From Phaeodactylibacter luteus (lineage in GTDB: Bacteria; Bacteroidota; Bacteroidia; Chitinophagales; Saprospiraceae), in NCBI RefSeq assembly GCF_007993045.1, contig NZ_VOOR01000038.1:1-50083 (forward strand): a DNA stretch of 50,083 nucleotides, given 5' to 3'. Made by a program: the position numbers and the translations under genes. The notes under the pieces were generated by a model. That model was not told the origin of the DNA, did no database searches, and saw nothing but the letters and a program-made list of their open reading frames with translations. Shown here in pieces: positions 3,776 to 45,584 of this stretch. Numbering within the stretch: position 1 is the stretch's first letter; the number at the start of each line of letters is the position of its first letter.

Positions 3776-3819
3776 GGGCGTAAACCAAATTATCGCAGGC
3801 GTTTATGTTTTCCGGGCTC

Positions 3820-3986
3820 TAGTGCCTCAAGCCATAAACCCTTGACACCCCAAGTTTCGTTATTTTCTGCCTACTCTTCGTTAAAGAACCGCTCCTTTAG
3901 CTCGGGCTAAAGTCGCGAACCTTCGCCTTGATTAGCCGGAAAATAACTTCAACTTAAGTATCAGAAGTATATGACTTGAGGCACTA
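3820..3986 (+). mobile_element. MITE type 1, copy a
   Basis: About 167 bp with inverted ends TAGTGCCTCAAGCCATAAA and TATGACTTGAGGCACTA, the outer TA being a possible target-site duplication as left by Tc1/mariner- or IS630-type transposases. The interior carries a hairpin-prone CTCCTTTAGCTCGGGCTAAAG. It has no ORF and shares one TA with the next copy, so the two are in direct tandem. Confidence 0.7.
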
Positions 3987-4151
3987 GTGCCTCAAGCCAT
4001 AAATCCTTGCCACCCCAAGTTTCGTTCTTTTCCGCCTACTCTTCGTTAAAGAACCACTCCTTTAGCTCGGGCTAAAGTCGCGAACCTTCGCCTTGATTAG
4101 CCGGAAAATAACTTCAACTTAAGTATCATAGATTTATGGCTTAAGGCACTT
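3985..4151 (+). mobile_element. MITE type 1, copy b
   Basis: Nearly identical to the preceding copy. Ends are GTGCCTCAAGCCATAAATCC and, inverted, GTGCCTTAAGCCATAAATC, one mismatch over 19 bases. The left flank is TA (shared with copy a), the right flank is TT. Confidence 0.7.
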
Positions 4152-4309
4152 GCCTGGCATTGGCCTAGCGCTGCGAAGGGGTGGCCGAAGGCCAGACCCG
4201 ACGCCTGTAGGGCGAGGGGCCGAGCGGACAGCGAGCCCCGGAGCATAGCGGCACCTGCCCGCTGGCAGGGGCAGGCCCCTTAAAAAAACGACAATCTGGT
4301 TTGTGCCCC

Positions 4310-4561
4310 ACATCTTAGCGCATATCTGAAGCTCGGCCCCATTGCCAATCCAACGCTTGATGCCCGCCTGCAGGCAATGCCATTCGATATAAACCCTAGA
4401 TTTTCAATGTAAAACCACTCCAAACAAGCCCTGAACTTCTCAAAATCCACCTTATGCTCAACACCCGGCTGCATTTCCTCTTGCTCTTGCCCGTCCTGCA
4501 CCTCCTTATCCACAGCTGTGCGCCCGCTCCAGAAACAGCGCGTGATCCTCCCGCCGTCCGG
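4310..4561 (+). pseudogene. Truncated duplicate of the 5' end of the GHL10-type hydrolase gene
   Basis: From 4454 the sequence encodes MLNTRLHFLLLLPVLHLLIH followed by S-C-A-P-A-P-E-T-A, the same signal peptide and lipobox as the intact gene at 22092-23213, with one Phe-to-Leu change. The upstream 140 bp also match the intact gene's upstream region. Homology stops at about 4561, after roughly 36 codons, where unrelated sequence with a GGCGTAGG...CCTACGCC hairpin begins. No functional product is expected. The segment is inverted relative to its source. Confidence 0.8.
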
Positions 4562-4580
4562 CGTAGGTTTCGCCTACGCC
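4560..4580. repeat. Perfect 8-bp hairpin at the duplication breakpoint
   Basis: GGCGTAGG and CCTACGCC flank a five-base loop exactly where homology with the 23 kb region ends. It could be the junction of the rearrangement or a terminator stem without a T run. The 130 bp from here to the cytochrome gene hold nothing else I recognise. Confidence 0.5.
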
Positions 4581-4714
4581 GTATCATTATCAAAACTCCG
4601 TTTTGCGCAGGTTTTACCTTCGCCGCAGCGCAATCAGAACACTGTTTTGCGTATATTTTGGAAAATCTAATTAACAGCAGGTCATGCCTACGAGGTTCAC
4701 GCTGGGGCAGCGCG

Positions 4715-6115
4715 CTACAGGGTCTTTAAATATTCAATCACTGCGCTGCGCTCTCGAGGGCTCAGTTCGTCCCCAAAGGTATGGCCTTGATTGCTGTAGC
4801 CTGGCAGGCGGGTATCAAAAGCCCATTCCCCCTTGGCTTCTTTGGGTGAGGTATACCTCCACCCCAGGGCATTGTGGTCGTAATCATGGCTATCGCCCGT
4901 GCGCTCCCACAGGACTGGGCGGGCTTTACTGTTAAGGAGCGCATCCACTGTGGGCACACTGCCGTTGTGCAGATAGGGCGCAGTAGCCCAAATGCCATCG
5001 AGGGGCGGTGCCATATAGCCCAGCTCTGGCTGAAAGTAAGAACGGGGGGCCGATTGGGCGAACCAACTGCTGTTGTACCATTCCACAATGCCGCTGTTGA
5101 AGGCATAGTTGGCGTACATGGGGTCCGTGCCGACCAGGCTGAGGGATATCAGCTTGTTGGGGTAGGTTTCTACGGCCCCGTAGGTGCCGTGGCAGCCGCT
5201 GCAGTGCTCTTCAAAAAGGGCCCGCCCCTGAGCGGCCAAGGGCGCATCGATAGGGCCTGGGTAGGGTGGGGGCTCAAGCTCTTGCAGCCAGGCCAGCACA
5301 TCTTTAAACCCAATGATCGCTTGCCGCGCGGCGGTGCTGTCTGGTATGCCTAGCACGGAGGCTTGAAAGAGCAGCTTGGTAAAATCGCCCCGCCCTATGC
5401 CATTGTAGTAGAGGGCGTTTTTCTTTTTGACGTGCCATAGGGGGGGCACATCTGTGGCAATGGTATACGCCATCATAGGGTAGTTGGGGGCTTCTTTCCA
5501 AGTCAGGTCAACGGGGTCCCGCTGCCGCATGCAAGCCTCTGCCAGCCGGAAGGCAGGGTTGGCCCCCGGCTGATTGGTCTGAATGTAAGGGGCCATAGCG
5601 GCAAAGTAACGGGCGAAGTCTTCATAGGCCTCCCACTCCGGGTCCGATTTTTTGTACTTCAAGCTCATGCCCACTTTCATGGCCTTGGCAAGCGGTTTGA
5701 AGCTTTTCTGGAAGGCGGAATAGCTGTTGCCCAAGCCAGGCAACAGCTCCCCGTTGATCCGGCCGGCATGGCAGGTGAAACAATTTCCGCTCAGTACGGG
5801 CACGCCATTTTCCGCAGCAGGGAAAACGCTCAGTGCATAGGGCAGGCTGCCGTTCCTGCCCTCGCGCAGTAGCACTGAATCGGGCTTGTTGGGCAGGCGT
5901 TTTTTGAAAAAATCATACGGTACGCCGCTGCCAATATAAGCGCCGCTGCCTATGAAAGCATAACCGGCTTCGGGGTCGCCCCCTGTTTGTTGGGCAGAGG
6001 CGGCAATGCGCTTTACTTTCCAGCTGTCGTCTGTCCGGGTGCCGGGCAGTTCCCGGTAGCGCTGACAGGCAAAAAGTATGAGCAGTAGCAAAGCGGCAGT
6101 GAGCAAGGTACGCAT
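4715..6115 (-). CDS. Di-haem c-type cytochrome lipoprotein, RoxA/RoxB-like
   Basis: The 466-residue protein has a signal peptide with cysteine 17 in L-F-A-C (lipoprotein). Two haem c attachment motifs are visible: CFTCH at 112-116 and CSGCH at 305-309. The C-terminal part contains APYLHNGSVP followed by a spaced RP and a G-D-S-H-D-Y-D segment, which is characteristic of the RoxA-like/di-haem peroxidase-related family. Members act in the periplasm or at the outer membrane, as peroxidases, electron-transfer proteins or, in RoxA/RoxB, as dioxygenases that cleave poly-isoprene. A precise activity cannot be assigned here. The gene stands alone between repeat-rich spacers and has no obvious operon partner. 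Confidence 0.8.
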   Translation of the reverse strand: MRTLLTAALLLLILFACQRYRELPGTRTDDSWKVKRIAASAQQTGGDPEAGYAFIGSGAYIGSGVPYDFFKKRLPNKPDSVLLREGRNGSLPYALSVFPAAENGVPVLSGNCFTCHAGRINGELLPGLGNSYSAFQKSFKPLAKAMKVGMSLKYKKSDPEWEAYEDFARYFAAMAPYIQTNQPGANPAFRLAEACMRQRDPVDLTWKEAPNYPMMAYTIATDVPPLWHVKKKNALYYNGIGRGDFTKLLFQASVLGIPDSTAARQAIIGFKDVLAWLQELEPPPYPGPIDAPLAAQGRALFEEHCSGCHGTYGAVETYPNKLISLSLVGTDPMYANYAFNSGIVEWYNSSWFAQSAPRSYFQPELGYMAPPLDGIWATAPYLHNGSVPTVDALLNSKARPVLWERTGDSHDYDHNALGWRYTSPKEAKGEWAFDTRLPGYSNQGHTFGDELSPRERSAVIEYLKTL

Positions 6116-6172
6116 AAGGAAAAGTGGTTGTCCAATTGAATGTTCTTCGGGCAGCAGGGCAATGCTTGGTAT

Positions 6173-6379
6173 GGGCGCAAACCCGATCGTTATTTTTTTG
6201 ATGGGGCCTGCCCCTGCCCGATGGCAGGCGCCGCTATGCTCCGGGGCTCGCTGTCCGCTCGGCCCCTCGCCCTACAGGCGTCGGGTCTGGCCTTCGGCCA
6301 CCCCTGCGCAGCGCTAGGCCAATGCCAGGCTGAAGCCCCAAAAGCATGAACGACAGCGGTGTTCTGTTTCGCTCCCCCC
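6173..6379 (-). mobile_element. Repeat element copy B
   Basis: Minus-orientation copy. One end is GGGCGCAAACCCGATCGTTA (6173 on), then the GC-rich hairpin core (GGGGCCTGCCCCTGCC ... GCTATGCTCCGGGGCTCGC ... CGCAGCGCTAGGCCAATGCC) and a diverged second end reading, inverted, GGGAGCGAAACAGAACACCG. No ORF and no clear flanking duplication. It fills most of the 414 bp spacer between the cytochrome gene and folP. Confidence 0.65.
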
Positions 6380-6487
6380 TGTACTGACTGCCTAACCATC
6401 AGATAGGAGGGAAGGTTGAGCACAGCAGGCCATTTTCTGCAGCTGCCCCTGATCAGAGGTTCTGCTAAGGGATATCTTTAGATTCCT

Positions 6488-6495
6488 TACCTTTG
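6488..6495 (+). promoter_or_regulatory. Candidate Bacteroidota -7 element for folP
   Basis: TACCTTTG matches the TAnnTTTG -7 box and lies 35 bp before the folP start. A clear -33 TTG is not seen at the usual distance, so this is a moderate call. Confidence 0.45.
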
Positions 6496-6529
6496 CAGCT
6501 GTAGAAGCGGGCCCACAAAATGTACTTCC

Positions 6530-7372
6530 ATGCTCAATCCTCGACTGACTTTAAATTGCAAAGGGAGGCTGCTCAGCCTCCAAACGCCTCAAGTGATGGG
6601 GATACTCAATGTCACGCCCGATTCCTTCTACGATGGGGGCCGCTTTCGCCACCTCGATCAGGCGGTAAAGCAGGCTGCCCAAATGTTGAACGAGGGGGCG
6701 GCCATCATCGATGTGGGCGGCATGTCCTCCCGCCCGGGCGCAGAGCTGATCTCTCCGGAGGAGGAGCTGAAGCGGGTCCTCCCCGTTGTGGAAGCCGTAA
6801 GCCGAGCATTCCCGGAAGCTATCATCAGTGTGGATACCATCCGCTCAAAAGTGGCAAGAGCTGCGGTGGCCGCAGGTGCGCATATGATCAACGACATCTC
6901 AGCGGGCGCTTTTGATGATGCGCTCTATGCTACGGTGGCAGAGCTCGGTGTGCCCTACATCCTTATGCACATGAAAGGCAGCCCCAAGACAATGCAGGAG
7001 CAGCCGGCATACGCCGATGTGGTGCAGGAAGTGCTGGATTTCTTGATTGCTGAAATCGGGAAACTTAGGGCTCTTGGGGTGAAGGATATTATTGTGGACC
7101 CCGGCTTTGGCTTCGGCAAGTCGGTTGCCCACAATTATGCCCTGCTGAAGCGCCTGCACGCTTTTCAGGTGCCGGAAGTGCCGGTTTTGGCTGGGCTGAG
7201 CCGTAAATCTATGATCTACAAAGTAACGGGGGGCGACGCCCAAAGCGCCCTGCCGGGCACGGCTGCCCTGAACATGGCCGCCCTTCAGCAGGGCGCCCGC
7301 CTGCTCCGGGTGCACGACGTCAAGGCCGCCGTTGATGTCATTTCACTCTGGAAAGCCCTAGAAGAAGCCTGA
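6530..7372 (+). CDS. folP: Dihydropteroate synthase
   Basis: FolP joins p-aminobenzoate to 6-hydroxymethyl-7,8-dihydropterin pyrophosphate to make dihydropteroate in the cytosolic folate pathway. The 280-residue length is normal. Family signatures are clear: M-G-I-L-N-V-T-P-D-S-F near residue 23 (pterin loop 1), I-D-V-G-G-M-S-S-R-P-G (loop 2), I-S-V-D-T, M-I-N-D-I-S, D-P-G-F-G-F-G-K and the S-R-K-S segment near residue 223. The start ATG gives a normal N-terminus. The stop overlaps the ATG of the next gene (TGATG), which implies translational coupling. In many Bacteroidota the neighbour of folP is the diadenylate cyclase gene; here a different membrane protein takes that place. Confidence 0.95.
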   Translation: MLNPRLTLNCKGRLLSLQTPQVMGILNVTPDSFYDGGRFRHLDQAVKQAAQMLNEGAAIIDVGGMSSRPGAELISPEEELKRVLPVVEAVSRAFPEAIISVDTIRSKVARAAVAAGAHMINDISAGAFDDALYATVAELGVPYILMHMKGSPKTMQEQPAYADVVQEVLDFLIAEIGKLRALGVKDIIVDPGFGFGKSVAHNYALLKRLHAFQVPEVPVLAGLSRKSMIYKVTGGDAQSALPGTAALNMAALQQGARLLRVHDVKAAVDVISLWKALEEA

Positions 7373-8763
7373 TGCAGTTGGAATATATGACCGAGCAGGA
7401 GGTGAAACGGGCCACGCTCCGTTTTCTGAAGCACCATTACCGGTTCCGGGAGCGGCAGGGGGCTGCTACGCTTACGGTAGATGTAAGGGGGGAAGGGGGG
7501 ATTGTAGCCGACGGGCTCTACGCTTTTACCCAGAAAAACGGGGAGCTCTTCCGGGCTACCTTCGAGGCGACTGCGATAGACCGCCAAGGGGAGGTACGGT
7601 TCCGGAAACAGCCGGGGCTGATGTGGTGGGATGCTGCCGCTTTGTCGGCCATCACGGCCCTTGCCCTCCTCTTCTGGGCGCACCAGGCTGCTGTGCTGAC
7701 CGTGGCCGAGCTGACCCTCACCGGCAGTATCGCCCTGCTGATTGCGGTTTTTTCCGCAGGGCTGGCCACCTACCGTTTCCTCATCGGCTGGCACAGAAGG
7801 TACCGCTACATCTATGCCATAGAGCAGTTCAAGCGCTATTATGCCAATGAGCAGTGGATCGCCTTGGGGGAGGGGGTGTTCACAGATTTTGAACGCGACC
7901 CCTACTTCTTGGAATTGCAGAATCAGTGCCGTTACCATGGCATCGGCCTATTGGTCTTGAAAAACCGTCAGGAGCCCCGCCTGCTGATGACCCCTTCGCG
8001 GACGGATACCTTCAAGAGCAAACGCAGGAACGTACAGCTCCTCTCCCAAGCTGATGTCAACCGCTTGTTTGAAGCAGGCAACCTGCCCGCATGGCTGCGG
8101 CAGTTCGATGCCGAGAATCTCAAGCGCTTTCAGCAGCAGTACAAGTATCAGGCTTTGGTATGTTTGCTGTCGGCCTTGCTCGCAGCCGGGCTGTTGTACC
8201 TTCAGTCTCAAAAAGCCGTTACCCGGATTGTAGAGAGCGAAGAAGCGTACCAAGAGCGGGTGGCCCTTGCCCGTCAGCGCAATGAACAGTATACGCAGCC
8301 CCTGGAGTTCAGGATAGATACGCCCTTGGTATGGCCTTACCCCATCCGCAGCGACCTGCAGGCGTACCTCGGCCCACAGCTGCAGCCTGAGCCGGCCAGG
8401 CCTGTTGCTAAAAGCCAAGGCGCTTCTCCCATAGAAGCCTTCATCGCCAGCCAGGCTACCGTTTATGATTGTTCCCGCATCCGCCCACTGGACGAAGTCG
8501 GGTATATCGTACAGGAAGGGGTATACGCTTCGTTCACAGCCGCTATGTCGAGGGTAGCCACGCTGGAGTCTTATGGGTTTACGGCAAGTGCCGTCTGGCT
8601 GGGCTGCTTCGATGAGCTCGAGAACGGTTATGCCCTCTATTTTGGCCTGATTTTTACAGATTTGGGCCATGCCCGCCGTGCCCTCGAAGGCTATGAGCGC
8701 CGCTTGGGGGATAACGTCCTGCAATTGAACTTGAACATTCGCTCCCTTAACCCCGTAAAATAG
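7372..8763 (+). CDS. Membrane protein of unknown function with SPOR-like C-terminus
   Basis: I do not recognise the 463-residue protein as a whole. Two adjacent hydrophobic segments (about 86-104 and 115-138) and a third (about 262-279) suggest a protein anchored in the inner membrane with a soluble middle domain. The last 100 residues start with Y-D-C-S-R-I and have a pattern of alternating strands and helix (V-Q-E-G-V-Y-A-S-F ... A-M-S-R-V-A-T-L-E-S-Y-G-F ... A-R-R-A-L-E-G-Y) like a SPOR fold, often used for peptidoglycan or regulatory contacts. The start overlaps the folP stop, so the two are co-translated. The SPOR resemblance is weak and the function unknown. Confidence 0.75.
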   Translation: MQLEYMTEQEVKRATLRFLKHHYRFRERQGAATLTVDVRGEGGIVADGLYAFTQKNGELFRATFEATAIDRQGEVRFRKQPGLMWWDAAALSAITALALLFWAHQAAVLTVAELTLTGSIALLIAVFSAGLATYRFLIGWHRRYRYIYAIEQFKRYYANEQWIALGEGVFTDFERDPYFLELQNQCRYHGIGLLVLKNRQEPRLLMTPSRTDTFKSKRRNVQLLSQADVNRLFEAGNLPAWLRQFDAENLKRFQQQYKYQALVCLLSALLAAGLLYLQSQKAVTRIVESEEAYQERVALARQRNEQYTQPLEFRIDTPLVWPYPIRSDLQAYLGPQLQPEPARPVAKSQGASPIEAFIASQATVYDCSRIRPLDEVGYIVQEGVYASFTAAMSRVATLESYGFTASAVWLGCFDELENGYALYFGLIFTDLGHARRALEGYERRLGDNVLQLNLNIRSLNPVK

Positions 8764-8833
8764 TGTATGGGGCTGTTATCTTTGCACTGGATTTTCCAGC
8801 CTGTTACTTTTTTCGCAAAACCATTTGTCTTTT

Positions 8834-9802
8834 ATGCCAGTCGTCAACTCTTCTTCCTACAAAGTCCGCGGGCTGTTCCGCAACCGCCACGTCAATACCA
8901 TCTATCCGGCCTTTTTCCGCCGGGTCGATGGCGTAGCTTATGAGCGGGAGCGGATCTCCACCCCCGATAAAGACTTTCTGGACCTGGACTGGTCTGTGGA
9001 AGGGCACGACAAGCTGGTCATCGTATTGCACGGCCTGGAAGGTTCTGCAGACCGCCCGTATATCCGTGGCATGGCCCGTTACTTCAATGAGCGGGGATGG
9101 GACGCCCTGGGCGTGAATTTCCGGGGCTGCAGCGGAGAGCCGAACTGGGCGCTGCGCTCCTATCATATCGGAGAAACTGCTGATCTGCAGCACATCATCG
9201 CCCATGCTCTGGGCACTGGCCGTTACCGCCACGTCGGGCTGATCGGGTTCAGCCTTGGCGGCAACGTAGTGCTCAAGTACTTGGGCGAAGGCAATGAATA
9301 CCCCAAAGAACTGGTGGGGGGCGTGGCGTTTTCTGTGCCCTGCGACGTCCTTTCGGCCAATACGGAAATTGATAAGCTCTACAATTGGCAGTACCGTCAG
9401 CGCTTCCTGGTCACCCTCAATGATAAGATGAAGGAAAAGGCAGCGCGCTTCCCCGGGCGCATCAAACTGCCTGCGCGCATGCCCCGCAATTTTATCGACT
9501 TTGACGATCAGTTCACCGCACCTATACACGGCTTCCGCGATGCTGAAGATTATTGGGTGAGCAGCAGCAGCATACACTTCATCCCGAGCATCCGGCATCC
9601 GGCCCTTTTGGTGAATGCCAAAGACGATTCCTTCCTGAGCGAGTCCTGCTACCCTTGGGAGCTGGCCGAGGGGCACCGCGCTTTCCACCTTGAGGTGCCA
9701 AACTGGGGCGGCCACGTCGGGTTTGTAACCCGCAGCAAAGATGGGCAGTATTGGACCGAGCGCCGGGCTTATGAGTTCCTTCGGGATAGCCTTCCGCATT
9801 AA
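8834..9802 (+). CDS. Alpha/beta hydrolase, YheT-like family
   Basis: About 322 residues. The N-terminal motif R-N-R-H-V-N-T-I-Y-P, the segment V-L-H-G-L-E-G-S, the F-R-G-C-S-G motif and the nucleophile elbow G-F-S-L-G-G-N are hallmarks of the YheT/EMB8/ABHD1-3 branch of the alpha/beta hydrolases. A late aspartate (K-D-D-S-F) and the histidine in W-G-G-H-V-G-F complete the catalytic triad. Relatives are cytosolic or membrane-linked esterases or lipases with poorly defined substrates. I chose the ATG at 8834 over an upstream in-frame TTG (8825). The gene stands alone, 70 bp after the previous gene and about 100 bp before the TamB-like gene. Confidence 0.9.
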   Translation: MPVVNSSSYKVRGLFRNRHVNTIYPAFFRRVDGVAYERERISTPDKDFLDLDWSVEGHDKLVIVLHGLEGSADRPYIRGMARYFNERGWDALGVNFRGCSGEPNWALRSYHIGETADLQHIIAHALGTGRYRHVGLIGFSLGGNVVLKYLGEGNEYPKELVGGVAFSVPCDVLSANTEIDKLYNWQYRQRFLVTLNDKMKEKAARFPGRIKLPARMPRNFIDFDDQFTAPIHGFRDAEDYWVSSSSIHFIPSIRHPALLVNAKDDSFLSESCYPWELAEGHRAFHLEVPNWGGHVGFVTRSKDGQYWTERRAYEFLRDSLPH

Positions 9803-9882
9803 AAGGACGTTAAACTGTAGCTAAGGCAGAGAAAAACCCGTTGATAGGAGTTGTATAGGGTGGGCAAACCTGTGCGCTGTCA

Positions 9883-9896
9883 CAGGCTGGAGCCTG
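9883..9896. repeat. Perfect short palindrome in front of the TamB-like gene
   Basis: CAGGCT-GG-AGCCTG ends five bases before the first ATG of the TamB-like gene. It could be an operator or an RNA hairpin hiding the ribosome-binding region, and may favour translation starting at the later ATG (9916). The role is unknown. Confidence 0.35.
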
Positions 9897-9900
9897 CCAA

Positions 9901-14841: not shown

Positions 14842-14862
14842 CCTGCTGTAGTTCCCAATAAA

Positions 14863-15039
14863 GGCGTGAGCCCAAATGCCGCAGGCGCTGATGCTTTTCG
14901 GGCTTTAGCCTGGCATTGGCCTAGCGCTGCGCAGGGGTGGCAAGCCCGACAGGGCCGAGCGGACAGCGAGCCCCGTAGCATAGCGGCACCTGCCCGATGG
15001 CAGGGGCAGGCCCCCAATAAGCCCCCGATCAGGCCGGCA
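14863..15039 (+). mobile_element. Repeat element copy C
   Basis: The left end GGCGTGAGCCCAAATGCCGC is followed by GCTTTTCGGGCTTTAGCCTGGCATTGGCC and the shared GC-rich core through GGCAGGGGCAGGCCCCC. The right end is diverged (GATCAGGCCGGCAC). This copy lacks the nested MITE and a segment of the core (CCGAAGGCCAGACCCGACGC). It lies in the 302 bp spacer between the convergent TamB-like and susD genes. Confidence 0.65.
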
Positions 15040-16691: not shown

Positions 16692-19600
16692 TTAGAACTT
16701 CACGCCGAGGTTGAACTGAACCGTGCGGGTAGAAGGCACCCCAAACATTTCCAGACCTTGGGCATTGGATACGTTGTAGGTAGATTCTGGGTCAATGTTT
16801 TCCGCTTTCTTCCAAAGGATAGCCAGGTTACGTGCTGCTACGCTAAGGGAGACGCCGCTAACTGGCAGTTTTTGGATGACACTGCGTGGGAGGTTGTAAG
16901 AAAGTACGACCTGGCGCAGCTTAGCGAAGTCAGAGTCGTAGATGAACTGCTCAGTGATGCTTCCACCGATGCGGCCGTAGTAGTCTTCTACGTTAGCAGC
17001 TTCGATAGGGCCGATGCCTGTTTCCCGCCCTTCCAGGGTGTTCTTGTGCAGGCCGCGGGTGTAAGCGAAGGCATTGGTCGCAGAGTAAATTTTGCCGCCC
17101 ATGCGCATGTCGATCAGGAAGCTCAGGCTGAAGTTTTTGTAGTTGAACGCACTTCCGATGCCCATGGTAGTTGGAGCAACGCCTGTGCCGAAGTAAGTGA
17201 ACTCGCCTTGCTGTGGCAGGCCATCTGCGTTGACAACGATGTTGCCCGCTTCGTCCCGCTGATAAGCAAAACCAGCCACTTGGCTGTAAGGGAGGCCTTC
17301 CACGTGCTCGATGTAAGCGTTGCGCGTACGGCTTTCGTCTGCGCGCAGGGTCTCTTCGTCGCCCTCAGGCGTCAGGAGGCGCTCAACGAGGTTCTCGTTG
17401 TGGGCAAAGTTGAAGTTGATGTCCCAGCTGAAGTTCTCGTTTTTGACCGGTGTGCCGGTCAACAGCAGTTCCACCCCTTTGTTGGACATGGAGCCGATGT
17501 TCACAATTTTAGACGTAAAGCCTGAGGTAGCGGAAACAGCAGCGCTGATGATATCGTCCTCTGTAGCGCGGTCGTAGTAAGTGAAGTCGGCGGTCAGACG
17601 GCCGGTGAACATGCGCAGGTCAAAGCCGATCTCCATTTCCTTTGTCACAAGCGGTACGAGGGCCGCATTCGGGATAGATCCGTTGGTGATGTAGCCCAGG
17701 GGATTGCCGAGGTGGCCTTGGCCGAAGATGCCGTAAGTGAGCGCCAGCTGATAAGGCTGTGCTGCTACGCCCGGGCCAGAACCAGTGGCGTAAGACGCGC
17801 GGATTTTAGCAAAATCGATAGCGCGGGGCAGTGCCATAAGGTCAGAAAGGACAACACCGACGCCAGCGGAGTAGTACCCCTGATTGTTCTCTCCGCTGCC
17901 ATCAGGGGCAGTCAGGGTAGAGAACCAGTCGTTGCGGTAAGTACCGCTCAGGTAGATGGCGCGCATCAGCCCCACTTCAGCAGAGCCGTACAAGCTGTTC
18001 ACCTGGTACTCGCCGAAGCCGAAGGTCACGCTGCGGTTGGCGGTATTGTTGATGCTGTGGAGGAAAGGCACGTTGAAGTTGCTGCCGCTGCCGCCCAAAG
18101 TCTCATCAAAGTTGCGCTGTTGGTTGCCGCCAGCCATGATGGTGAGGGAAAGGTTGTCGGAGATGTCTTTGTTGTAGCCCAACAGGATCTCCGTGTTCAG
18201 TTCCTGCACCTCGCGTGTGGTCTCGCTGATCTGGCCGTTCGGGCTGTAAGCGGTGCCAAACGGTGTCAGGTTGCGTGCCCGGTAAGTGAAGCGGTCGAGG
18301 CCGATGCGGCCACGTGCGAAGAGGTCTTCAGTGATGTCGTACTGAATTTGAGCCTTGCCCATGAGGCGGTCCTTACGGCTGTCGTTCTCAAACTGGTACG
18401 CAGCCCAGTAAGGGTTGGTGACGAAAACGTTGTCGTTGAACTGGAACTCCGTCCCATCAGCGTTGGCGCCAAGCTTATCCGCATCGCCTTTGAGGTCTTC
18501 TACGTTGATGCTTGCAGGAAGAGAAAGCGCTGTGTAGTTGGCGTTGCCCGGGGAGTCAGAAAGCCGGGGGCGGTTGTGCGCTTTTTCGTTGACATACATC
18601 GCCATGATGCTGGTCGTAAAGCGCTCGCCCAGCTTCGCGTTGGTGTTCAGCGTGAAGTTGCGGCGGGTCAGGCCAGAGTTCGGCATGATGTCCTCGTTGT
18701 CCAAGTTGGAGGCCGAGAAGCGGAAGTTCGCCCGGTCGTTGCCGCCAGAAAGCGTCAGGGTATTGATGTAAGAGAGCCCGGTGCGGTAAAAACGGCTGGC
18801 GTTGTCTCCGGCATCGCTGTACGGGCGGGAAACACCGTCGAACTGAATGACACTAGAGCCATCAAGCGGCGCTCCCCAAGCATACAGGCCGTTGGCCAGC
18901 GCTTCCGCTTCGGTAGAAGGCTTGAGGCCGTCGCGGCCATGGCCATACTCCCGCTGGAAGTCGTAGGTATTGTTGAGGGTCTCTGTCCGTACCTGCGTAT
19001 TGAATTCTACCCCGATGCCTTTGCGGGCTGCACCGCTTTTGGTCGTGATCAGGATCACACCGTTGGCAGAGCGGTAGCCGTACAAGGCTGCTGCAGAAGC
19101 CCCCTTCAATACAGAGATGCTTTCGATGTCTTCCGGGTTGATGGAAGAAATGCCATCGCCGCCGTCAGCGCCGCCCCACATGCCTGCAGAGCCCAAGTTG
19201 GTGTTGTCGATGGGCACCCCATCGATAACATAAAGCGGCTGATTGGAGCCGGACAGGGAGTTGTTGCCCCGGATCAGCACGCGGGAGGAGCCACCTGCAC
19301 CTGTAGCGGTAGAGGCTACGTTCACCCCAGCCACCTTGCCGGCCAGGGAGTTGACCACGTTGGTCTCCCGGGCTTCCGCGAATCCGTCAGGGGATACTTC
19401 CGAAACGGAATAGGTAAGGGCTTTCTTCTCTTTTTTGATGCCCAAAGCGGTTACCACCACTTCGTCCAAGTTGACCCCGGCAGAAAGCGTGATGTCAATG
19501 GCTGTTTGGTTGCCCACTTCCACCTCTTGGGTCTCAAAGCCAGTGTAGCTGAAAACCAGTGTAGCCCCATCCGCTACTTTAATGGAATAGTTGCCGTCCA

Positions 19601-23213: not shown

Positions 23214-23358
23214 AAGGTGGATTTTGAGAAGTTTAGGGCTTGTTTGGAGTGGTTTTATTTTGAAAATCTAGGGTTTATATCGAATGGCATTGCTGGCAGG
23301 CGGGCATCAAGCGTTGGATTGGCAATGGGAATGGACTCCAGATAAACGCTAAGATGTG

Positions 23359-23727
23359 GGGCGCAAACCAGATTGTCGTTTTTTTGGGATGGGCCTGCCC
23401 CTGCCTCCGGGCAGGTGCCGCTATGCTCCGGGGCTCGCTGTCCGCTCGGCCCCTCGCCCTGCAGGCGTCGGGTCTGGCCTTCGGCCACCCCTGCGCAGCG
23501 CTAGGCCAATGCCAGGCAAGTGCCTTAAGCCATAAATCTATGATACTTAAGTTGAGGTTATTTTCCGGCTAATCAAGGCGAAGGTTCGCGACTTTAGCCC
23601 GAGCTAAAGGAGCGGTTCTTTAACGAAGAGTAGGCGGAAAAGAACAAAACTTGGGGTGGCAAGGATTTATGACTTGAGGCACTAGAGCCCGAAAAGCATA
23701 AACACCTGCGACAGTTTGGTTCATGCC
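23359..23727 (-). mobile_element. Repeat element copy D, inserted at the AGE epimerase stop codon
   Basis: Ends GGGCGCAAACCAGATTGTCG (23359 on) and, inverted, GGCATGAACCAAACTGTCGC (ending 23727). The element is flanked by the direct repeat TAAGATGTG at 23350-23358 and 23728-23736, a 9-bp target-site duplication. It contains the GC-rich core (23390-23517) and one MITE type 1 (23518-23684). No ORF. It separates the AGE epimerase gene from the GHL10-type gene. Confidence 0.85.
23518..23684 (-). mobile_element. MITE type 1, copy c
   Basis: Inverse orientation of the copies at 3.8-4.15 kb; ends AAGTGCCTTAAGCCATAAATC and GGATTTATGACTTGAGGCACTA. It is nested inside element D at the same point as copies a and b in element A. 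Confidence 0.7.
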
Positions 23728-24899
23728 TAAGATGTGCGGAGCGCTTCCAAGGCCTGCCAGCAGCCCCACAATGCACGGGGCACATGAAAGCAGCCCTTCC
23801 ATTTCCCGCCTTTGGCGGTGTGCAGCGGTGTGCCTTCCCTCTTTAGGTAGCCATACCATTCTCCGTACTCAGGTTCTGAAAACCGCGGCCAGGAATAGTG
23901 GTGCAGCTTGAGGAACCAATCCGCCAGCCGGCTGTCTTTGGTCTGTACATAGGCTTTTAAAACGGCTTCCAGGGCTTCTAAGTGCACCCACCATAGTTTT
24001 TGGTCCCACTCCAGCTGTTCGGGCGGATAGCCTTTGCGGTCCAGGAAGTAGTACAGCCCCCCATAGGTGGTGTCCCAGCCAAAGTCGAGCATATGGAGTA
24101 TGCGCTGCCCGGCTTTTCTGCAGAGCTTGGCATCTCCTCTCCTCGCGCCCAGGTCGATGATGAAGCGCATGGCTTCTAAGGCGTGCCCGGGGTTGATGAG
24201 CCTCCCGGGGAAAGAATCGCTCAGCCCGCCGCCGGGCTCCACATTTTCGAGCACCAGCCCGGTTGTCGGGTCAAAAAAGACTTCCATCACGGTGTGGATG
24301 CACTCGTCTATAGTCTGCTCAACGAGTTGGGGCTCAAGCAGGGGCTCAAGCTCCAAGCAGAGGTTGCACAAGATCATGGGCAGGGAAAAGCCCTGCAGTG
24401 CCCGCCCGCCCGGCACTGCCTTGTTGTAAATGCCCTTGGGGTTGCCACGCCGTTCCAGTATTTTCCGGAAGGTAGCAGAAGCGGTCTCTGCATAGCGCGC
24501 TTCCCCCGTAGACAGGTACAATTGCCCGAAGGCCATAGCAGCGAAGCAGTCTGAGAAAATATTATAGGGCTGTACCAGCGGCCGCCCCTGCCGGCTGAGG
24601 GAAAAGTACCAGTCCCCATTGGGCGCCCGGCCGTGCTTCTCCAGGAAATCGGCGCCGAGCATTGCCATATCCAGCCACTCCTGTTTTTGCTCCAAGCGGT
24701 TGTAGAGCATAGAAAAAGTCCAGACTTGGCGGGCTTGCAGCCAAACCATTTTGTCGGTATCGTAAACTTGGCCATTGCGCAGCAGGCAGGTGAAATAGCC
24801 GCCATGCTCTGGGTCCGGGCTGTGTTTTTCCCAAAAGGGCAACACTTTGCCGAGTAGTTCGTCCCGGTAAATAGGGCTGTAGTGGTCTGCTGTGGTCAT
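23727..24899 (-). CDS. AGE-family epimerase/isomerase (N-acylglucosamine 2-epimerase type)
   Basis: 390 residues, no signal peptide, so cytosolic. The (alpha/alpha)6-barrel family includes N-acetylglucosamine 2-epimerase, cellobiose 2-epimerase and mannose isomerase. Visible hallmarks are W-L-Q-A-R-Q-V-W-T-F-S near residue 53, the N-P-G-H-A-L-E-A-M-R segment around 238 with the conserved histidine, and W-W-V-H-L-E-A-L-E-A near 326 with a second conserved histidine. Which sugar it isomerises cannot be told from the sequence. It follows the DUF4434 gene by 1 bp, so both are translated from one message. The stop codon TAG straddles the boundary with inserted element D and would also have been TAG before the insertion. 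Confidence 0.92.
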   Translation of the reverse strand: MTTADHYSPIYRDELLGKVLPFWEKHSPDPEHGGYFTCLLRNGQVYDTDKMVWLQARQVWTFSMLYNRLEQKQEWLDMAMLGADFLEKHGRAPNGDWYFSLSRQGRPLVQPYNIFSDCFAAMAFGQLYLSTGEARYAETASATFRKILERRGNPKGIYNKAVPGGRALQGFSLPMILCNLCLELEPLLEPQLVEQTIDECIHTVMEVFFDPTTGLVLENVEPGGGLSDSFPGRLINPGHALEAMRFIIDLGARRGDAKLCRKAGQRILHMLDFGWDTTYGGLYYFLDRKGYPPEQLEWDQKLWWVHLEALEAVLKAYVQTKDSRLADWFLKLHHYSWPRFSEPEYGEWYGYLKREGTPLHTAKGGKWKGCFHVPRALWGCWQALEALRTS

Positions 24900-31890: not shown

Positions 31891-31909
31891 TTCTTAAGCT
31901 GAGCTGCTG

Positions 31910-32113
31910 GGGCGTAAATCAAAATGTCGCTAGTGTTCAATCTTGTAGGCTTTAGGATGAAGCCGGCCTAGCGCTGCGAAGGGGTGGCAAGCCCGATAGG
32001 GCCGAGCGGACAGCGAGCCCCGCAGCATAGCGGCACCTGCCGCCAGGCAGGGGCAGGCCCCTATCCTTACGGAGGGGGCAGGCCCCAAAAAAGCGACAAT
32101 CTGGTTTGCGCCC
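31910..32113 (+). mobile_element. Repeat element copy E
   Basis: Ends GGGCGTAAATCAAAATGTCGC and, inverted, GGGCGCAAACCAGATTGTCGC. Flanked by the direct repeat AGCTGCTG at 31902-31909 and 32114-32121 (8-bp target-site duplication). Carries the short form of the GC-rich core. No ORF and no nested MITE. Confidence 0.8.
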
Positions 32114-32142
32114 AGCTGCTGCCACTGTCGTTGAGCGGCCGC

Positions 32143-34997: not shown

Positions 34998-35005
34998 CGA
35001 GGCAG

Positions 35006-35039: not shown

Positions 35040-35044
35040 ACTCC

Positions 35045-38001: not shown

Positions 38002-38006
38002 AACGG

Positions 38007-38864: not shown

Positions 38865-38898
38865 AGGGGCAAAAAGCGGATGGTTGGCATGAAGGTAC

Positions 38899-38934
38899 AA
38901 AAAGCCCTTTCCCGCACAAGGGGAAAGGGCTTTT
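38899..38934 (-). terminator. Terminator of ald
   Basis: AAAAGCCCTTTCCC and GGGAAAGGGCTTTT form a 14-bp stem with a 7-base loop, 29 bp behind the ald stop. It ends in a T run on either strand. Confidence 0.8.
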
Positions 38935-38962
38935 CAAGGTTGACGGCAGTAAAGCGTAGCCG

Positions 38963-40075: not shown

Positions 40076-40161
40076 AAGCTTGGTGTTTTAACCTTTGGTT
40101 AGGGAATAGGGCTGCTGCCCAAAATGCCCCGCAAAAATAGTCAAACTGTGGATATTTAGCC

Positions 40162-40526
40162 GAGCCGCCCTGGTTTTTAGCTGCTTTATTTCCGGGGCCT
40201 GCCCCTGCCTCGCGGCAGGTGCCGCTATGCTCCGGGGCTCGCTATCCGCTCGGCCCCTCGCCCTGCAGGCGTCGGGTCTGGCCTTCGGCCACCCCTTCGC
40301 AGCGCTAGGCCAATGCCAGCCTAGTGGTCTGTCAAGTGTTAATTTATGGGTTGAGTGGGAGCGGATTTTGAGGCTAATCAAGGCGGATGTTCCCGCGCAT
40401 AGCAGCGCTACGTAAGAGGTTGTCCAACGAAGCGTAGCCTCAAAAGTCGCCGCAGGCAACCCCTAGTTTTAGCCTTGACAGACCACTAGTGCCCGGAAAG
40501 CATAAGCGATATTTGGGTTTACGCCT
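40162..40526 (-). mobile_element. Repeat element copy F
   Basis: Minus-orientation copy. The high-coordinate end, inverted, reads GGCGTAAACCCAAATATCGC; the low-coordinate end is badly eroded (near 40162). The GC-rich core is at 40196-40318. A different MITE (type 2, 40322-40488) sits at the same internal point where MITE type 1 sits in copies A and D. No flanking duplication seen. Confidence 0.65.
40322..40488. mobile_element. MITE type 2 nested in element F
   Basis: Perfect inverted ends TAGTGGTCTGTCAAG / CTTGACAGACCACTA? The left end reads TAGTGGTCTGTCAA and the right end TTGACAGACCACTA, exact inverse complements with outer TA. The interior (about 140 bp) has no ORF; it shares GGCTAATCAAGGCGGA-like sequence with the interior of MITE type 1. 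Confidence 0.7.
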
Positions 40527-40551
40527 TGGGCAGCTGCCGGCCAAGTGCTGT

Positions 40552-41538
40552 TCACTCCTCTATCAGTTGGTAAAGGGCATCAAGCTTGGGGGTCAGGATG
40601 ATTTCTGTCCGCCGGTTTTTGGCTTTGCCTTCTGCAGTATCGTTGCTGGCGATAGGGTAGAACTCCCCCCGCCCTGCAGCGGTAATGCGTGCAGGGTCGA
40701 CGCCTTCATCGGTAATGACTTTCACGACGGAAGTGGCCCGGCCCACGCTCAAGTCCCAATTGAAGGCTGCCTCCCCATCTGTATCGGTATGCCCTTCTAC
40801 CGTAATGCCGATGTCAGGGTTGCTTTTCAGGACCGCTGCGACCTTCCGGATGGCGTCTTTGCCCTCTGTGTTGATGGTTTTGCTGCCAGAGCGGAACAGG
40901 AGGTTCTGGCTAAGCGAAACATAGACCTTCCCATTTTCTTCCCGCACGGAGAGGTCGGCATCGGAGAAGCCGAGCAAGGCTTGGTTGATGCGCTCCCGCA
41001 GGGTGTTGAGCTTGGCCTCTTTAGCGGCAATAGCCTCTTCCAGTTCATTGACCCTGGCTTCCCGTTCCACTAAGCCTTGTCGGAGGGCTTCCACATCCGC
41101 TTCTTTTTCCTCTATGGCCTGCTCCAGCTGCCGCAATTGTTGTTCGCGCCGGTTGAGCTCTTGCTCTTTGAGGGTAAGCTGTGCCATGAGCTGTTTGCGT
41201 TCGTCGGAGGAAGACTCCAGCATTTGCTGATTTTGCTCGAGCATGCGGTCGTAGCGTTTCATCAGGTCTTCGTTAGACTTTTCCAGCCTGCTGTACCGGT
41301 CCCGGGAAGTGCGGAGGTCCTGTTCTGCTTCTGCCAATCGCTTGGAAAGAGACTGGTTCTCTTCGCGTAGGCCCCGGTTGCTTTCGGCGCTGCTGGCCAG
41401 CTGTGTTTCCAGGTCCTGGTAGTTGGCCTGCAGCTTGTCCCGCTCAGCAAGCGTATCTTCATATTTTTGGTAGCTTACGCAGCTGCTCATGCCTAAGGCG
41501 ATGGCAAGGGCAAAAAAGGCAGACGATATTTTTTTCAT
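40552..41538 (-). CDS. OmpA-family lipoprotein with long coiled coil
   Basis: 328 residues with a lipoprotein signal (M-S-S-C, cysteine 20). Residues 25-195 are a continuous coiled coil rich in E, Q, R and L. The C-terminal domain (about 210-320) is OmpA-like peptidoglycan binding: L-L-F-R-S-G-S-K, V-E-G-H-T-D-T-D-G (with the aspartate that binds diaminopimelate), V-G-R-A-T-S-V and K-N-R-R-T-E-I (binding arginine). It should tether the outer membrane to the cell wall across a long spacer. It stands as a single gene between groEL and repeat element F. Confidence 0.93.
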   Translation of the reverse strand: MKKISSAFFALAIALGMSSCVSYQKYEDTLAERDKLQANYQDLETQLASSAESNRGLREENQSLSKRLAEAEQDLRTSRDRYSRLEKSNEDLMKRYDRMLEQNQQMLESSSDERKQLMAQLTLKEQELNRREQQLRQLEQAIEEKEADVEALRQGLVEREARVNELEEAIAAKEAKLNTLRERINQALLGFSDADLSVREENGKVYVSLSQNLLFRSGSKTINTEGKDAIRKVAAVLKSNPDIGITVEGHTDTDGEAAFNWDLSVGRATSVVKVITDEGVDPARITAAGRGEFYPIASNDTAEGKAKNRRTEIILTPKLDALYQLIEE

Positions 41539-41605
41539 AAGGAAAGTTGGTTAGTCAGGAAATAGGGCTTGAGCCACTAGGGCCCTCAAGCCCAATAAGA
41601 GAACG

Positions 41606-41644
41606 AAAAAAGCCCTCTGGCGTTTCCCGCCAGAGAGCTTTTTT
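41606..41644 (-). terminator. Terminator of the groESL operon
   Basis: CTCTGGCG-TTTCC-CGCCAGAG stem with GCT/AGC extensions and T/A runs on both sides, 26 bp behind the groEL stop. Confidence 0.8.
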
Positions 41645-41669
41645 AAGGGTTAATCTGCTCAGGGGCTGA

Positions 41670-43355
<1,686 letters not shown>

Positions 43356-43391
43356 TCAGCAGCGGGCAGGCCGCTGTGGGGAGGGAAGGCC

Positions 43392-43667
43392 TTATTCGTT
43401 GCCTTCGAGGATGACAAGGATGTCGTCTTCACGCATGATGAGGTAATCCTGCCCCTGATATTGCAGCTCCTGTCCGGCATATTTGCCATAGAGCACGACG
43501 TCACCGGTCTTAACGGTCATTTCATTGCCGTCTTTGCCGGGGCCAACGGCTACCACTTCGCCGCGCTGCGGCTTCTCTTTAGCCGTATCAGGGATGATGA
43601 TGCCGCCCTGCGTCTTTTCTTCAGCGGGAGCAGGCTTGACCACAACTCTGTCATTGATGGGCTTCAT
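43392..43667 (-). CDS. groS: Co-chaperonin GroES (10 kDa)
   Basis: 91 residues, the usual length. [12 protein letters not shown] at the start, the mobile loop [11 protein letters not shown] near 25 and V-L-Y-G-K-Y-A-G near 60 are standard GroES. GroES caps the GroEL ring. It is the first gene of groESL. The 243 bp upstream spacer holds a GTGC-GAAA-GCAC hairpin (minus-strand reading) and the secG terminator, but no heat-shock operator I can recognise. Confidence 0.97.
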
Positions 43668-43842
43668 AGTTAAAGCTTTTATGAATTCGTTTTGTTAAAT
43701 AATTGTTGGAGTGCTTTCGCACGGGAATGTACCATCACAGGGCGTGCCAAACGCGCTTTTCTGTCATTTTTGCAGGTCGGGCCAGCCTCCTTTGTCAGTT
43801 GCCCTTGCTGCACTGCGTGCATGGTGACAGAATGGCAAAAAA

Positions 43843-43875
43843 AACAGGCTGAGTGAATTGCTCACTCAGCCTGTT
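43843..43875 (-). terminator. Terminator of the secG unit
   Basis: AACAGGCTGAGTGA and TCACTCAGCCTGTT form a perfect 14-bp stem around five bases; on the minus strand it ends in a run of eight T residues. Confidence 0.88.
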
Positions 43876-43910
43876 CAGGCGGCCATGCTTATGGTCTGGC
43901 CGTCAGTGTG

Positions 43911-44174
43911 TTATTGAGAAAGAAGCTGCTCTGCTGCGCCTTCGGTGCCGCCTACGAGCAATGTGGTGGCGATGCAAAGCGCGAAGAGGGCGATGGCAAG
44001 GTACCAGGTAGCCTTCTCGATAAAGTCAGTTGATTTGGCTGCACCGAACATTTGGTTAGCCTGTGTGCCACCGAAAGTGGAGTCTACGCCGCCACCTTTG
44101 GGGTTTTGGATCAGAATAGCGCCCATCAGCAGGATACAAACGAGGGCGATGAATACAGTCATGGTAGTCAGCAT
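43911..44174 (-). CDS. secG: Preprotein translocase subunit SecG
   Basis: 87 residues with two membrane helices (about 4-22 and 54-74) joined by the conserved I-Q-N-P-K-G-G-G loop followed by F-G-G-T-Q-A-N-Q-M-F-G, the SecG signature. SecG assists SecYE in protein export through the inner membrane. It follows the TPR-like gene by 4 bp, so they are one operon, and has a strong terminator. Confidence 0.94.
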   Translation of the reverse strand: MLTTMTVFIALVCILLMGAILIQNPKGGGVDSTFGGTQANQMFGAAKSTDFIEKATWYLAIALFALCIATTLLVGGTEGAAEQLLSQ

Positions 44175-44178
44175 ATCT

Positions 44179-45192
44179 CTAATCGCTTTTAAGATTCTGA
44201 ATTAGCTGCGCAAAGTAATCACTTTTTTCTGGAAAAACCAACATCAGCCGCCGGTACATTTCCACTGCTTTGCCGGTCTGCCCTTGCCGGGCGAGCAGGC
44301 GGGCGAGCGTTTCGGAGGCGATCTCATCGTTCTCAGTGATACTGCGGGCGGCGATATGGTCCACTTTCTTTTTGCTGTGTCGGTCTTTTTCTTTTTTGCT
44401 GGCCTCCATCAGGTCGCCCAGCTGGGACTGTATATCTGGCGGCTGGAACTGTGCGATCCAGCTGCTGAAAGAGGCTTTGGGCCTGGGCTTCGGCACTCCG
44501 GTATGCAGTGGCCGGTCTACGGGCATGCGCTCATCAGCGGGTTCAGGCTTTATGGGGCTGAGCCCCGCAATGCTGACCGCCGTGCTGACGGCATGTTCTA
44601 TCCAACGCTCGCGTGCAGGTGCCGGCTGCATGCTGGCATTCGGCATTTCAGCAGCGGTGGTATCCGGCCCTGCCGCCTGTTCTTCAGGCGTTGCAGGGGC
44701 GGGAGGGCTTTGGTCGGGCAGGGGCGGGTCTTCGGCTTCCGGCCCTGCTCCTGCCGGCCAGGCGAGGTCTTCTTCTTCCTGAGCAGGGCTGAGCCCCAGC
44801 CCTTCCGGGAAATGGATGTGGAGGGTATCGGGCCCGGCCGCACCATCTTCTTCCTGAAGGGGGAGCAGGCTGTCCTGCTCCGCATCAAGCTCTTCCAGGC
44901 TCCTTAGCTCAAGGTATTCTTCTTGCAAAGTGAATGACTCTTGCTGCGGCTCTGGAGAGGTGAGGCGGTCCACCAGTGCAGCGAGTGCCCTCCGGTCGGT
45001 AGTCAGTGCGGATGCCCTCGCCAAGTGCCCTTTCCAGTCGTCGCGGTTGTCCATCAAGGCTTTGCACAGCAGCAGTACGCTGAGCGGCTGGCTGTATGGA
45101 TATTGCAGTACCAGGGTCTTGATCTCCTGGAAGGATACCCGCTGCAGCATTTCAGGGTGCTGCAGGTATTGATGGAAGTGGTCTGCGTTCAT
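44179..45192 (-). CDS. Hypothetical protein with C-terminal TPR-like repeat
   Basis: 337 residues, no signal peptide. The N-terminal 90 residues are helical (L-V-L-Q-Y-P-Y-S-Q-P-L-S-V-L-L-L). The middle (about 100-210) is low-complexity, rich in E, P and A, probably disordered. The segment F-S-S-W-I-A-Q-F near 245 and the C-terminal E-T-L-A-R-L-L-A-R-Q-G-Q-T-G-K-A-V-E-M-Y-R-R-L form a short TPR-like motif. Proteins of this layout are widespread in Bacteroidota and commonly encoded before secG; no function is established. Confidence 0.82.
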   Translation of the reverse strand: MNADHFHQYLQHPEMLQRVSFQEIKTLVLQYPYSQPLSVLLLCKALMDNRDDWKGHLARASALTTDRRALAALVDRLTSPEPQQESFTLQEEYLELRSLEELDAEQDSLLPLQEEDGAAGPDTLHIHFPEGLGLSPAQEEEDLAWPAGAGPEAEDPPLPDQSPPAPATPEEQAAGPDTTAAEMPNASMQPAPARERWIEHAVSTAVSIAGLSPIKPEPADERMPVDRPLHTGVPKPRPKASFSSWIAQFQPPDIQSQLGDLMEASKKEKDRHSKKKVDHIAARSITENDEIASETLARLLARQGQTGKAVEMYRRLMLVFPEKSDYFAQLIQNLKSD

Positions 45193-45247
45193 GATTTTAT
45201 ATCCTGCCTGGCATTAAAAAGTAAGCGCCCGGGGTTCAAAAGTAAGT

Positions 45248-45343
45248 TTAAAGTCTGACAACTTAGGATTTCGCTCTGCGTCTGCTGCGTGGTGTGGCAA
45301 ATAGCAAGTCAGCATTGATAAATCTTAGGTTGTCAGGCTATAA
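45248..45343. mobile_element. Short inverted-repeat element (MITE-like type 4)
   Basis: Ends TTTAAAGTCTGACAACTTAGGA and, inverted, TTTATAGCCTGACAACCTAAG enclose about 50 bp. No ORF. It could also fold into one long hairpin. It lies between the start of the TPR-like gene and repeat element G. Confidence 0.5.
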
Positions 45344-45384
45344 AATATGACAATGGGCTCACTCGCCCGGATAACGGCCCTCTA

Positions 45385-45584
45385 GGCGTAAACCAAAATG
45401 TCGCTAGCGTTTAGCCTTATCGGCTTTAGGGTGGAGCCGGCCTAGCGCTGCGGAGGGGTGGCCGAAGGCCAGACCCGACGCCTGTAGGGCGAGGGGCCGA
45501 GCGGATAGCGAGCCCCGTAGCATAGCGGCTCCTGCCCTGTGGCAGGAGCAGGCCCCAAAAAAAATGGCAATCTGGTTTGCGCCC
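45385..45584 (+). mobile_element. Repeat element copy G
   Basis: Ends GGCGTAAACCAAAATGTCGC and, inverted, GGGCGCAAACCAGATTGCCA. Left flank GGCCCTCTA, right flank GGCCCTTTT: a likely, slightly eroded 9-bp target-site duplication. Contains the full-length GC-rich core and no nested element. It fills most of the 489 bp spacer in front of rdgB's 3' end. Confidence 0.78.

Follow-up and report, generated by a model that had tools for sequence, protein, structure and literature searches.

What are the short gene-less repeats that recur between the genes of a 50,083-nt stretch of Phaeodactylibacter luteus DNA, and how does the folded core inside them relate to the inverted ends that bound them? The stretch (contig NZ_VOOR01000038.1, positions 1 to 50,083; hereafter the window) is contig C234 of a draft genome of 6,011,527 bases (G000). 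A preliminary description of its seven repeat copies, A to G, had proposed a non-autonomous transposon, with the alternative that the core was kept for its own sake. We conclude that the repeats are probably composite, with a gene-less transposon on the outside and, inside it, a captured copy of an older structured repeat of the Saprospiraceae.

The outer part was defined by its copy number, its ends and its duplications. A 35-bp core pattern, searched on both strands with at most three mismatches, matched the 6.0-Mb genome of the window 660 times (328 + 332), and the reversed pattern used as a control gave 0 matches; a 19-bp end pattern, searched in the whole genome, gave 572 matches (290 + 282; control, 4). 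Ends and cores were related to each other in a sample of 850,083 bases of this genome, window included. Both ends were recognised in 42 of the 96 cores sampled, only the left end in 10 and only the right end in 20. The core was nearly always found beside the ends (149 of 152 end-pattern matches had a core within 600 bp, some sites being counted twice), whereas the remaining 24 cores had no recognisable end. The three end matches without a nearby core comprised two at the ends of sequence pieces and one with a weak core. Flanking duplications, scored with the ends allowed to shift, were found in 22 of the 42 two-ended copies, against 7 of 1722 mismatched left-right flank combinations used as a control. 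The duplications were 8 bp long in 10 copies, 10 bp in eight (two with one mismatch), 7 bp in three and 9 bp in one; the commonest length is 8 bp and the range is 7-10 bp, where 8-9 bp had been suggested.

Unfilled sites were sought by removing the element and one copy of its duplication and matching the joined flanks to the genome. Four of the 31 elements tried matched another dispersed repeat across the joined flanks. The best of these paralogous sites, that of the element at C280+42472, was C280:27495-27634 (query 2-142 of 160, 73.8 per cent), with a second match at C1:129012-128908 (80.9 per cent); several other matches in the list were element copies or the element's own locus. A dispersed repeat family other than that of the element is an insertion target for it (G000 C280:27495-27634, C247:137972-138112, and others). 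The same ends also bound elements that have no core: a 409-bp element in the congener G004, with the 8-bp repeat ATTCAACA; one 90-bp element in G145; and, among 20 end matches in G123, pairs bounding elements of roughly 280-330 bp. Neither G145 nor G123 is among the 37 genomes in which the core was found. At contig ends of G123, a gene starts after one element end and a gene finishes before another, a pattern that a full-length insertion sequence would leave if it had been collapsed during assembly.

Common terminal inverted repeats, target duplication and paralogous unfilled sites are features of miniature inverted-repeat transposable elements (MITEs), and the outer part has those MITE features that were tested, an orthologous empty site and a fully read autonomous partner excepted. 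Together with the same-ended elements in relatives they support the proposal of a non-autonomous transposon for this genome; the common ends and duplications, whose absence genome-wide had been named as evidence against mobility, were both found, the ends across the genome and the duplications in the 850-kb sample. The outer part would be a small gene-less transposon that is bounded by the inverted repeat GGGCGYAAACCARATTGTCG and duplicates about 8 bp of its target; a full-length element sharing these ends (GGGCGCAAACC) presumably supplied the transposase in trans. We infer mobilisation in trans; of a full-length element of this kind, only the two edges came to light, in the relative G123. At locus D, the one place where an orthologous empty site was sought in the congeners, the neighbouring gene differs. 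Phage records gave no match for copy B, and viral contigs gave nothing with an epimerase query, which was ill-suited.

All seven copies were present in the window where they had been described, and a covariance model of the core, run on the window, gave exactly seven cores and no eighth. Both ends passed the test of our script in four of the seven (A, D, E, and G); B, C, and F each have at least one decayed end. Copy A (3776-4309, plus strand; core 4162-4279) is a whole element; its two inverted ends have 2 and 1 mismatches, and its long spacer contains nested repeats. Copy B (6173-6379, minus strand; core 6203-6320) is a whole element with one end decayed. Copy C (14863-15039, plus strand) has a decayed right end and a short-form core (14918-15014) in which arm P6 is missing. 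Copy D (23359-23727, minus strand; core 23390-23507) is a whole element with a nested repeat in its spacer, and copy E (31910-32113, plus strand) a whole element with a short-form core (31965-32061). Copy F (40162-40526, minus strand; core 40194-40311) has one end decayed and a CTAG-flanked nested repeat in its spacer, and copy G (45385-45584, plus strand; core 45439-45556) is whole. Of the direct repeats reported at D, E, and G, those at D (TAAGATGTG, 23350-23358 and 23728-23736) and E (AGCTGCTG, 31902-31909 and 32114-32121) are clean, but that at G is only partial (GGCCCTCTA at 45376-45384 vs. GGCCCTTTT at 45585-45593) and scored as a 7-bp duplication only with shifted ends. No acceptable direct repeat was found in the flanks of A, B, C, and F. 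Copies A and D have about 40-55 bp of common flank at the same element end (4310-4365 and 23319-23358), so A may derive from D, or A and D may have exchanged sequence, and this may be why A has no duplication.

The copies had been described as always lying between genes, and none of the 96 sampled cores lay inside a gene called by our script. Two remarks apply in the window. The gene at 23727-24899 (minus strand) has its stop codon where copy D is inserted, and D restores that codon. An open reading frame at 3395-3910, without a Pfam match, runs into copy A and terminates inside it; the insertion of A may have altered its 3' end. The spacers of A, D, and F (about 3820-4150, 23520-23700, and 40330-40490) contain other small palindromic repeats (AGTGCCTCAAGCCATAAA... 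twice in A, CTAGTGGTCTGTCAAG... in F), apparently inserted at CTAG, and the genome is layered with several small palindromic repeat families.

The core forms a multi-helix cloverleaf fold of 95-140 nt. Helix P1 closes the junction, and the P2/P3 stem leads to P4, P6 and a small conserved hairpin GC-GAAYA-GC, with arm P7 on the 3' side; the fold often runs on into an A-rich tail. The fold was examined in three alignments: A1, of 30 sequences (25 from Saprospira and five from the window) aligned without structure, in which segments of the junction are conserved; A2, of 39 covariance-model matches from many genera; and A3, of Saprospira plasmid sequences. The covariance model was built from A1, and the searches used an earlier, partly incorrect register of P2 and not the refined one. 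In P2, which contains a two-base bulge and a G.A step, columns 8-163, 9-162, 11-160, 12-157, and 13-156 were Watson-Crick in 193 of 194 cells, the refined pairs 12-157 and 13-156 in 39 of 39 and 38 of 39 rows. P3 varies with compensation, and the arms P4, P6, and P7 differ among copies in both sequence and length but still pair. Thirty-four columns are near-invariant, with one letter shared by 37 or more of the 39 rows. Most of them fall in the segments AGCG.TG, CCGAGC..A..AGCGAGC, and TAGCG; in the structure they belong mainly to P2, the surroundings of the junction and the small hairpin. Covariation was 0.357 in A1 (shuffled, 0.110; slid, ≤ 0.089), 0.420 in A2 (shuffled, 0.122 ± 0.009; slid, ≤ 0.063), and 0.414 in A3 (shuffled, 0.133); cells changed on both sides numbered 176 in A2, against 42.9.

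The fold is not confined to the window's genome. The covariance model detected it in 37 of 248 family genomes and in 24 of 112 genera; this family scan used stricter filters, and a count of 12 to 14 in one genome stands for at least that many copies. A scan of the order found the fold in 14 of 298 genomes, 13 of them in the family and one of the 14 weak. Among the matches listed in a scan of named genomes, the core was present in Saprospira grandis Lewin and in DSM 2844. The carrier G018 has at least 138 copies. No congener of the window's genome matched a 24-base pattern (0 of 5), and the model gave one match each in G001 and G004. Where cores were low in copy number, no common neighbour gene was found at the three loci read.

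These relatives bear on a rival account of the window, one ordinary MITE family whose core is its mere interior and whose end-less relatives are decayed copies. The association of ends with cores and the short, gene-less form with duplications are what that account would predict. It is already contradicted by other results, and we consider it very unlikely. The Saprospira copies, read at several loci, lack ends of the window type although their core sequence is closely conserved; the end pattern, with at most two mismatches, had no match in G087 (taken as S. grandis Lewin) or in the carriers G014, G018, G035, and G066; elements with the same ends and other interiors exist; and the fold covaries across genera. 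A core that occurs without ends in other genera and covaries there also supports the earlier alternative, that it is kept for its own sake, and we regard this as the larger of the two findings.

The window's genome itself contains two core populations. Cores of the A type (AGCGATG) had both ends in 0 of 10 cases in the sample, a result against the ordinary MITE account, and cores of the C/A type (AGCGCTG with GCATAGCG) had both ends in 39 of 77; nine further cores were unclassed or of other types. At the type-defining place, most Saprospira copies also had A (290 of 371). We read the split between types, together with the core beside 149 of 152 ends, as a resident end-less population alongside one version that the transposon would have picked up and multiplied. 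By the favoured, composite reading, the inner part would be a captured copy of an older Saprospiraceae repeat, one version of its core having been caught in the lineage of the window and multiplied to about 660 copies; the resident population would presumably have come first, and capture and amplification later. Several cores (G000 C2:46649, C1 rc 12185, C236:27309, and others) have a third repeat (AGAGCTnnTTnGGATTTT...) as an insertion in their P4 region.

The placement of the inner repeat was clearest in Saprospira, where it occurs without the transposon ends. The model found 261 copies in a sample of 800 kb of the S. grandis Lewin chromosome, or one per 3.1 kb (extrapolated to about 1,400), and 93 in 850 kb of the window's genome (extrapolated to about 660). 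Three syntenic plasmids of Saprospira, searched over their first 50 kb, had 63 copies, none of them inside a gene. By the plasmids' own annotation, one or two copies were present in 51 of 64 spacers of at least 150 bp, in 1 of 7 spacers of 100-149 bp, and in 0 of 53 shorter than 100 bp. On the Lewin chromosome, where genes were called by a simple script and copies by a regular-expression detector (which recovered 58 of the 63 plasmid copies, with one extra), 268 of 404 spacers of at least 150 bp were filled and 0 of 395 shorter ones; 3 of 356 copies lay within a called gene. In 173 of 231 Lewin spacers with a single copy, the 3' end of the repeat was the one nearer to a gene, and on the plasmids it often lay 2-8 bp past a stop codon. 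Of 59 pairs of copies within 450 bp of each other, 57 had a head-to-head arrangement (Lewin, 33 of 34; DSM 2844, 15 of 16; plasmids, 9 of 9), counts that are partly non-independent in that some sites are common to the species. The plasmid (L320, L321, and L322) is 53-55 kb long in the three strains and has genes for purine biosynthesis as well as a phenylacetate pathway.

Positions are also conserved between sister species. Of 151 Lewin copies with adequate flank, 33 were placed by both flanks in the portion of the DSM 2844 sequence analysed (duplicates removed), and 31 of these sites were filled there, 30 strictly between the flanks and one enlarged, by eye. The remaining two sites were units of a Lewin tandem array that is seemingly shorter in DSM 2844, and no clear empty site was found among the 33. 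At the sites read, arms and inner segments were swapped wholesale within flanks that were mostly 90-97 per cent identical, and one DSM 2844 copy had three inserted segments relative to Lewin. The inner repeat in Saprospira is thus a syntenic feature of most larger spacers, with its 3' end tending towards the nearest gene. Two further observations concern its form: a hairpin module of roughly 46 bp (ACAACAAGG...CGCAGTTCGACGACC...GGGAGTAAC) makes an extra arm in the fold at L225 near 18212-18966 and at other Saprospira loci, and L187 5349-5896 (Lewin) holds three tandem copies at a spacing of about 215 bp.

From this placement it could be argued that the inner repeat marks spacers, in chromosome organisation or as a gene boundary. 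The filling of most spacers of at least 150 bp on chromosome and plasmids, the 3' end towards the gene, the head-to-head pairs, and the synteny over species are all consistent with such a mark. However, 211 of the 248 family genomes had no match and some carriers one only, under the stricter filters, and the congeners of the window's genome had no match to the 24-base pattern and one model match in each of two. Since most family genomes and the congeners have no or nearly no copies, the repeat is not needed in general, and we think a spacer mark rather unlikely.

With DNA parameters, the sense strand gave better consensus pairing than the antisense strand in 36 of 39 diverse sequences, and with RNA parameters it did so in 31 of 39; in the plasmid sequences it was favoured in 56 of 63 (DNA) and 55 of 63 (RNA). 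Mean pair probabilities were slightly higher with RNA than with DNA parameters. Across genera, G.T outnumbered A.C (26 vs. 2), and in P1 and P3 alone the counts were 7 vs. 0 (A2) and 6 vs. 6 (A3), which favours neither molecule. Both the strand preference and the parameters, along with the covariation, the conserved junction bases, and the two-base bulge and G.A step of P2, would suit a structured RNA made from each copy, with a job at the transcript level as a 5' leader, a processing signal, or a decay barrier. The 5' heads of paired copies face each other, so that transcripts started between them would traverse both copies in sense. We hold this reading as a possibility, at less than even confidence, for several results speak against it. 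The orientation of copies to neighbouring genes was mixed (over the four possible arrangements, 37/33/23/19 for 112 Lewin copies and 71/63/58/40 for 232). The Bacteroidetes-type promoter box, TAnnTTTG, was not clearly enriched between pairs (3 and 8 by strand vs. 3.1 ± 1.8 shuffled, one side being above chance). Among Lewin in-element hairpins with stems of at least 6 bp, loops of the GNRA form usual in RNA numbered 1 of 705, although the P7 loop was GCAA in 49 of 499 by a crude parse; that parse is unreliable, with 129 A.C and 3 G.T that are mostly misplaced pairs. Neither the window nor five Saprospira loci (30 kb in all) had an Rfam match that reached the gathering score, and around copy B there were only chance-level matches at E ≤ 10.

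By analogy with repetitive extragenic palindromic (REP) sequences or attC sites, the inner repeat may instead be folded single-stranded DNA for a structure-specific enzyme, itself once mobile. In Saprospira, P4 (510 windows with 76 distinct arms, which are not independent because they come from two related genomes) had 2672 of 2683 pairs Watson-Crick and 2 G.T; its loops were GNA in 356 of 500 and closed by C-G in 493 of 500. In the same set of Lewin hairpins, GNA loops on either strand were found in 371 of 705 inside elements and in 116 of 1757 outside. GNA loops are a class known for unusually stable DNA mini-hairpins, including the ultra-stable GAA triloop (PMC11101458). These loops are not general: GNA closed P4 in 10 of 39 sequences across genera and was seen in 1 of 79 in-element hairpins of the window's genome. 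P6, with 60 G.T vs. 2 A.C in its parse, is also unlike the strictly paired P4. A replichore bias was rejected, the S. grandis copies lying throughout with strand counts of 85/83 and 94/94. That result, the lack of a clear empty site among the 33 placed in DSM 2844, and the searches for an enzyme described below argue against the single-stranded DNA account, which we hold, like the RNA account, at less than even confidence.

Among known systems, the nearest to the outer part are the bacterial MITEs, of which Correia/NEMIS, ERIC/RU-1, RUP, and RPE are reviewed in PMC2229807. Like them, the element is short, gene-less, and intergenic, has inverted ends and a target duplication, and may carry structural motifs; unlike them, its interior is an independent, older fold that lives without ends in other genera. 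REPs, according to PMC3733652, are 20-40 bp long, have a GTAG or CGTC tag, and are associated with a RAYT (Y1) transposase. The hundreds of intergenic palindromic copies per genome resemble REPs and bacterial interspersed mosaic elements, but the fold is a 95-140-nt junction with several covarying helices rather than a single tagged hairpin. A Y1 transposase was rejected as the mover: PF01797 had no match in the carrier G018 and one each in G000, G059, and G060, so that Y1 genes do not track the presence of the repeat.

The bcr1-like repeats of the Bacillus cereus group are of similar size and have a predicted secondary structure, at a far lower copy number; they have no known sequence relation to the repeat, and to our knowledge no swapped arms have been reported for them. 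Integron attC sites act as a folded single strand with a variable middle part, but occur in arrays, whereas the repeat forms dispersed single sites. The attC identity was rejected, the integron integrase model TIGR02249 being over its cut-off in 0 of 10 carrier genomes searched (weaker matches occurred in 10 of 10 carriers and likewise in 14 of 14 controls). An intrinsic terminator was rejected by eye, since A follows the sense strand and the other strand therefore has T before the stem. By these tests the inner part is not a REP/RAYT system, an attC site, an intrinsic terminator (by eye), or an Rfam family. Titles in the open literature on Saprospira repeats and genomes, Saprospiraceae MITEs, and Bacteroidetes palindromes (the original Lewin paper excepted) do not name the repeat, and the genome announcement of S. 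grandis WHT makes no mention of repeats, palindromes, hairpins, intergenic, transposition, or noncoding elements.

The composite reading that we favour goes one step further than placing a transposon around an older repeat. The inner repeat would be tolerated or used by the host, and its single-stranded fold, as RNA or single-stranded DNA, would be recognised by one protein; recognition of one folded strand by a protein is the account of the fold that we favour. Several points weigh against the reading as a whole. For the outer part, the search proposed earlier for a transposase gene flanked by the same ends came back empty in 850 kb of the window's genome, as did 30 further loci, and the G123 edges (22 and 25 aa) gave no usable match and are too short to name a family. 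Of the C/A-type cores, 14 of 77 have neither end, so that the two populations are not sharply divided. For the fold, A2 and A3 were fitted to the model and are hence biased towards its structure, and the structure of A1, though the alignment was made without it, was drawn on A1's own sequences. Two of five measures in A3 were not above the shuffles (both-side changes, 15 vs. 13.3; pair types, 30 vs. 30.1), and in A1 the pair-type count was only weakly above them (24 vs. 21.1). Single-sequence folding beat shuffles modestly (z, -1.0 to -2.7 in sense and -0.4 to -1.6 in antisense), and the best fold of copy A with RNA parameters differs from the consensus. Retention of the core could stem from recombination between copies and not from selection.

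A bolder view is that the Saprospiraceae module is unlike any catalogued repeat in combining a folded strand recognised by a dedicated protein, an invariant junction, replaceable arms, and a fixed polarity at gene boundaries, with occupancy of most larger spacers in some genomes, with capture by a transposon in the lineage of the window. We put this forward tentatively, as something that may well not hold; if true, the module would represent a new class, either of structural elements spread through a genome or of mobile DNA recognised by its structure. In Saprospira, an extrapolated total of about 1,400 copies in a 4.3-Mb chromosome, occupying two thirds of the larger spacers under a near-strict head-to-head rule, gives a density and polarity that far exceed those of the REP or MITE families known to us. 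The Saprospira strains are culturable, which makes a host role of dispersed structured repeats directly testable, and the genome of the window offers a natural experiment, the fold having been placed under a transposon there and amplified.

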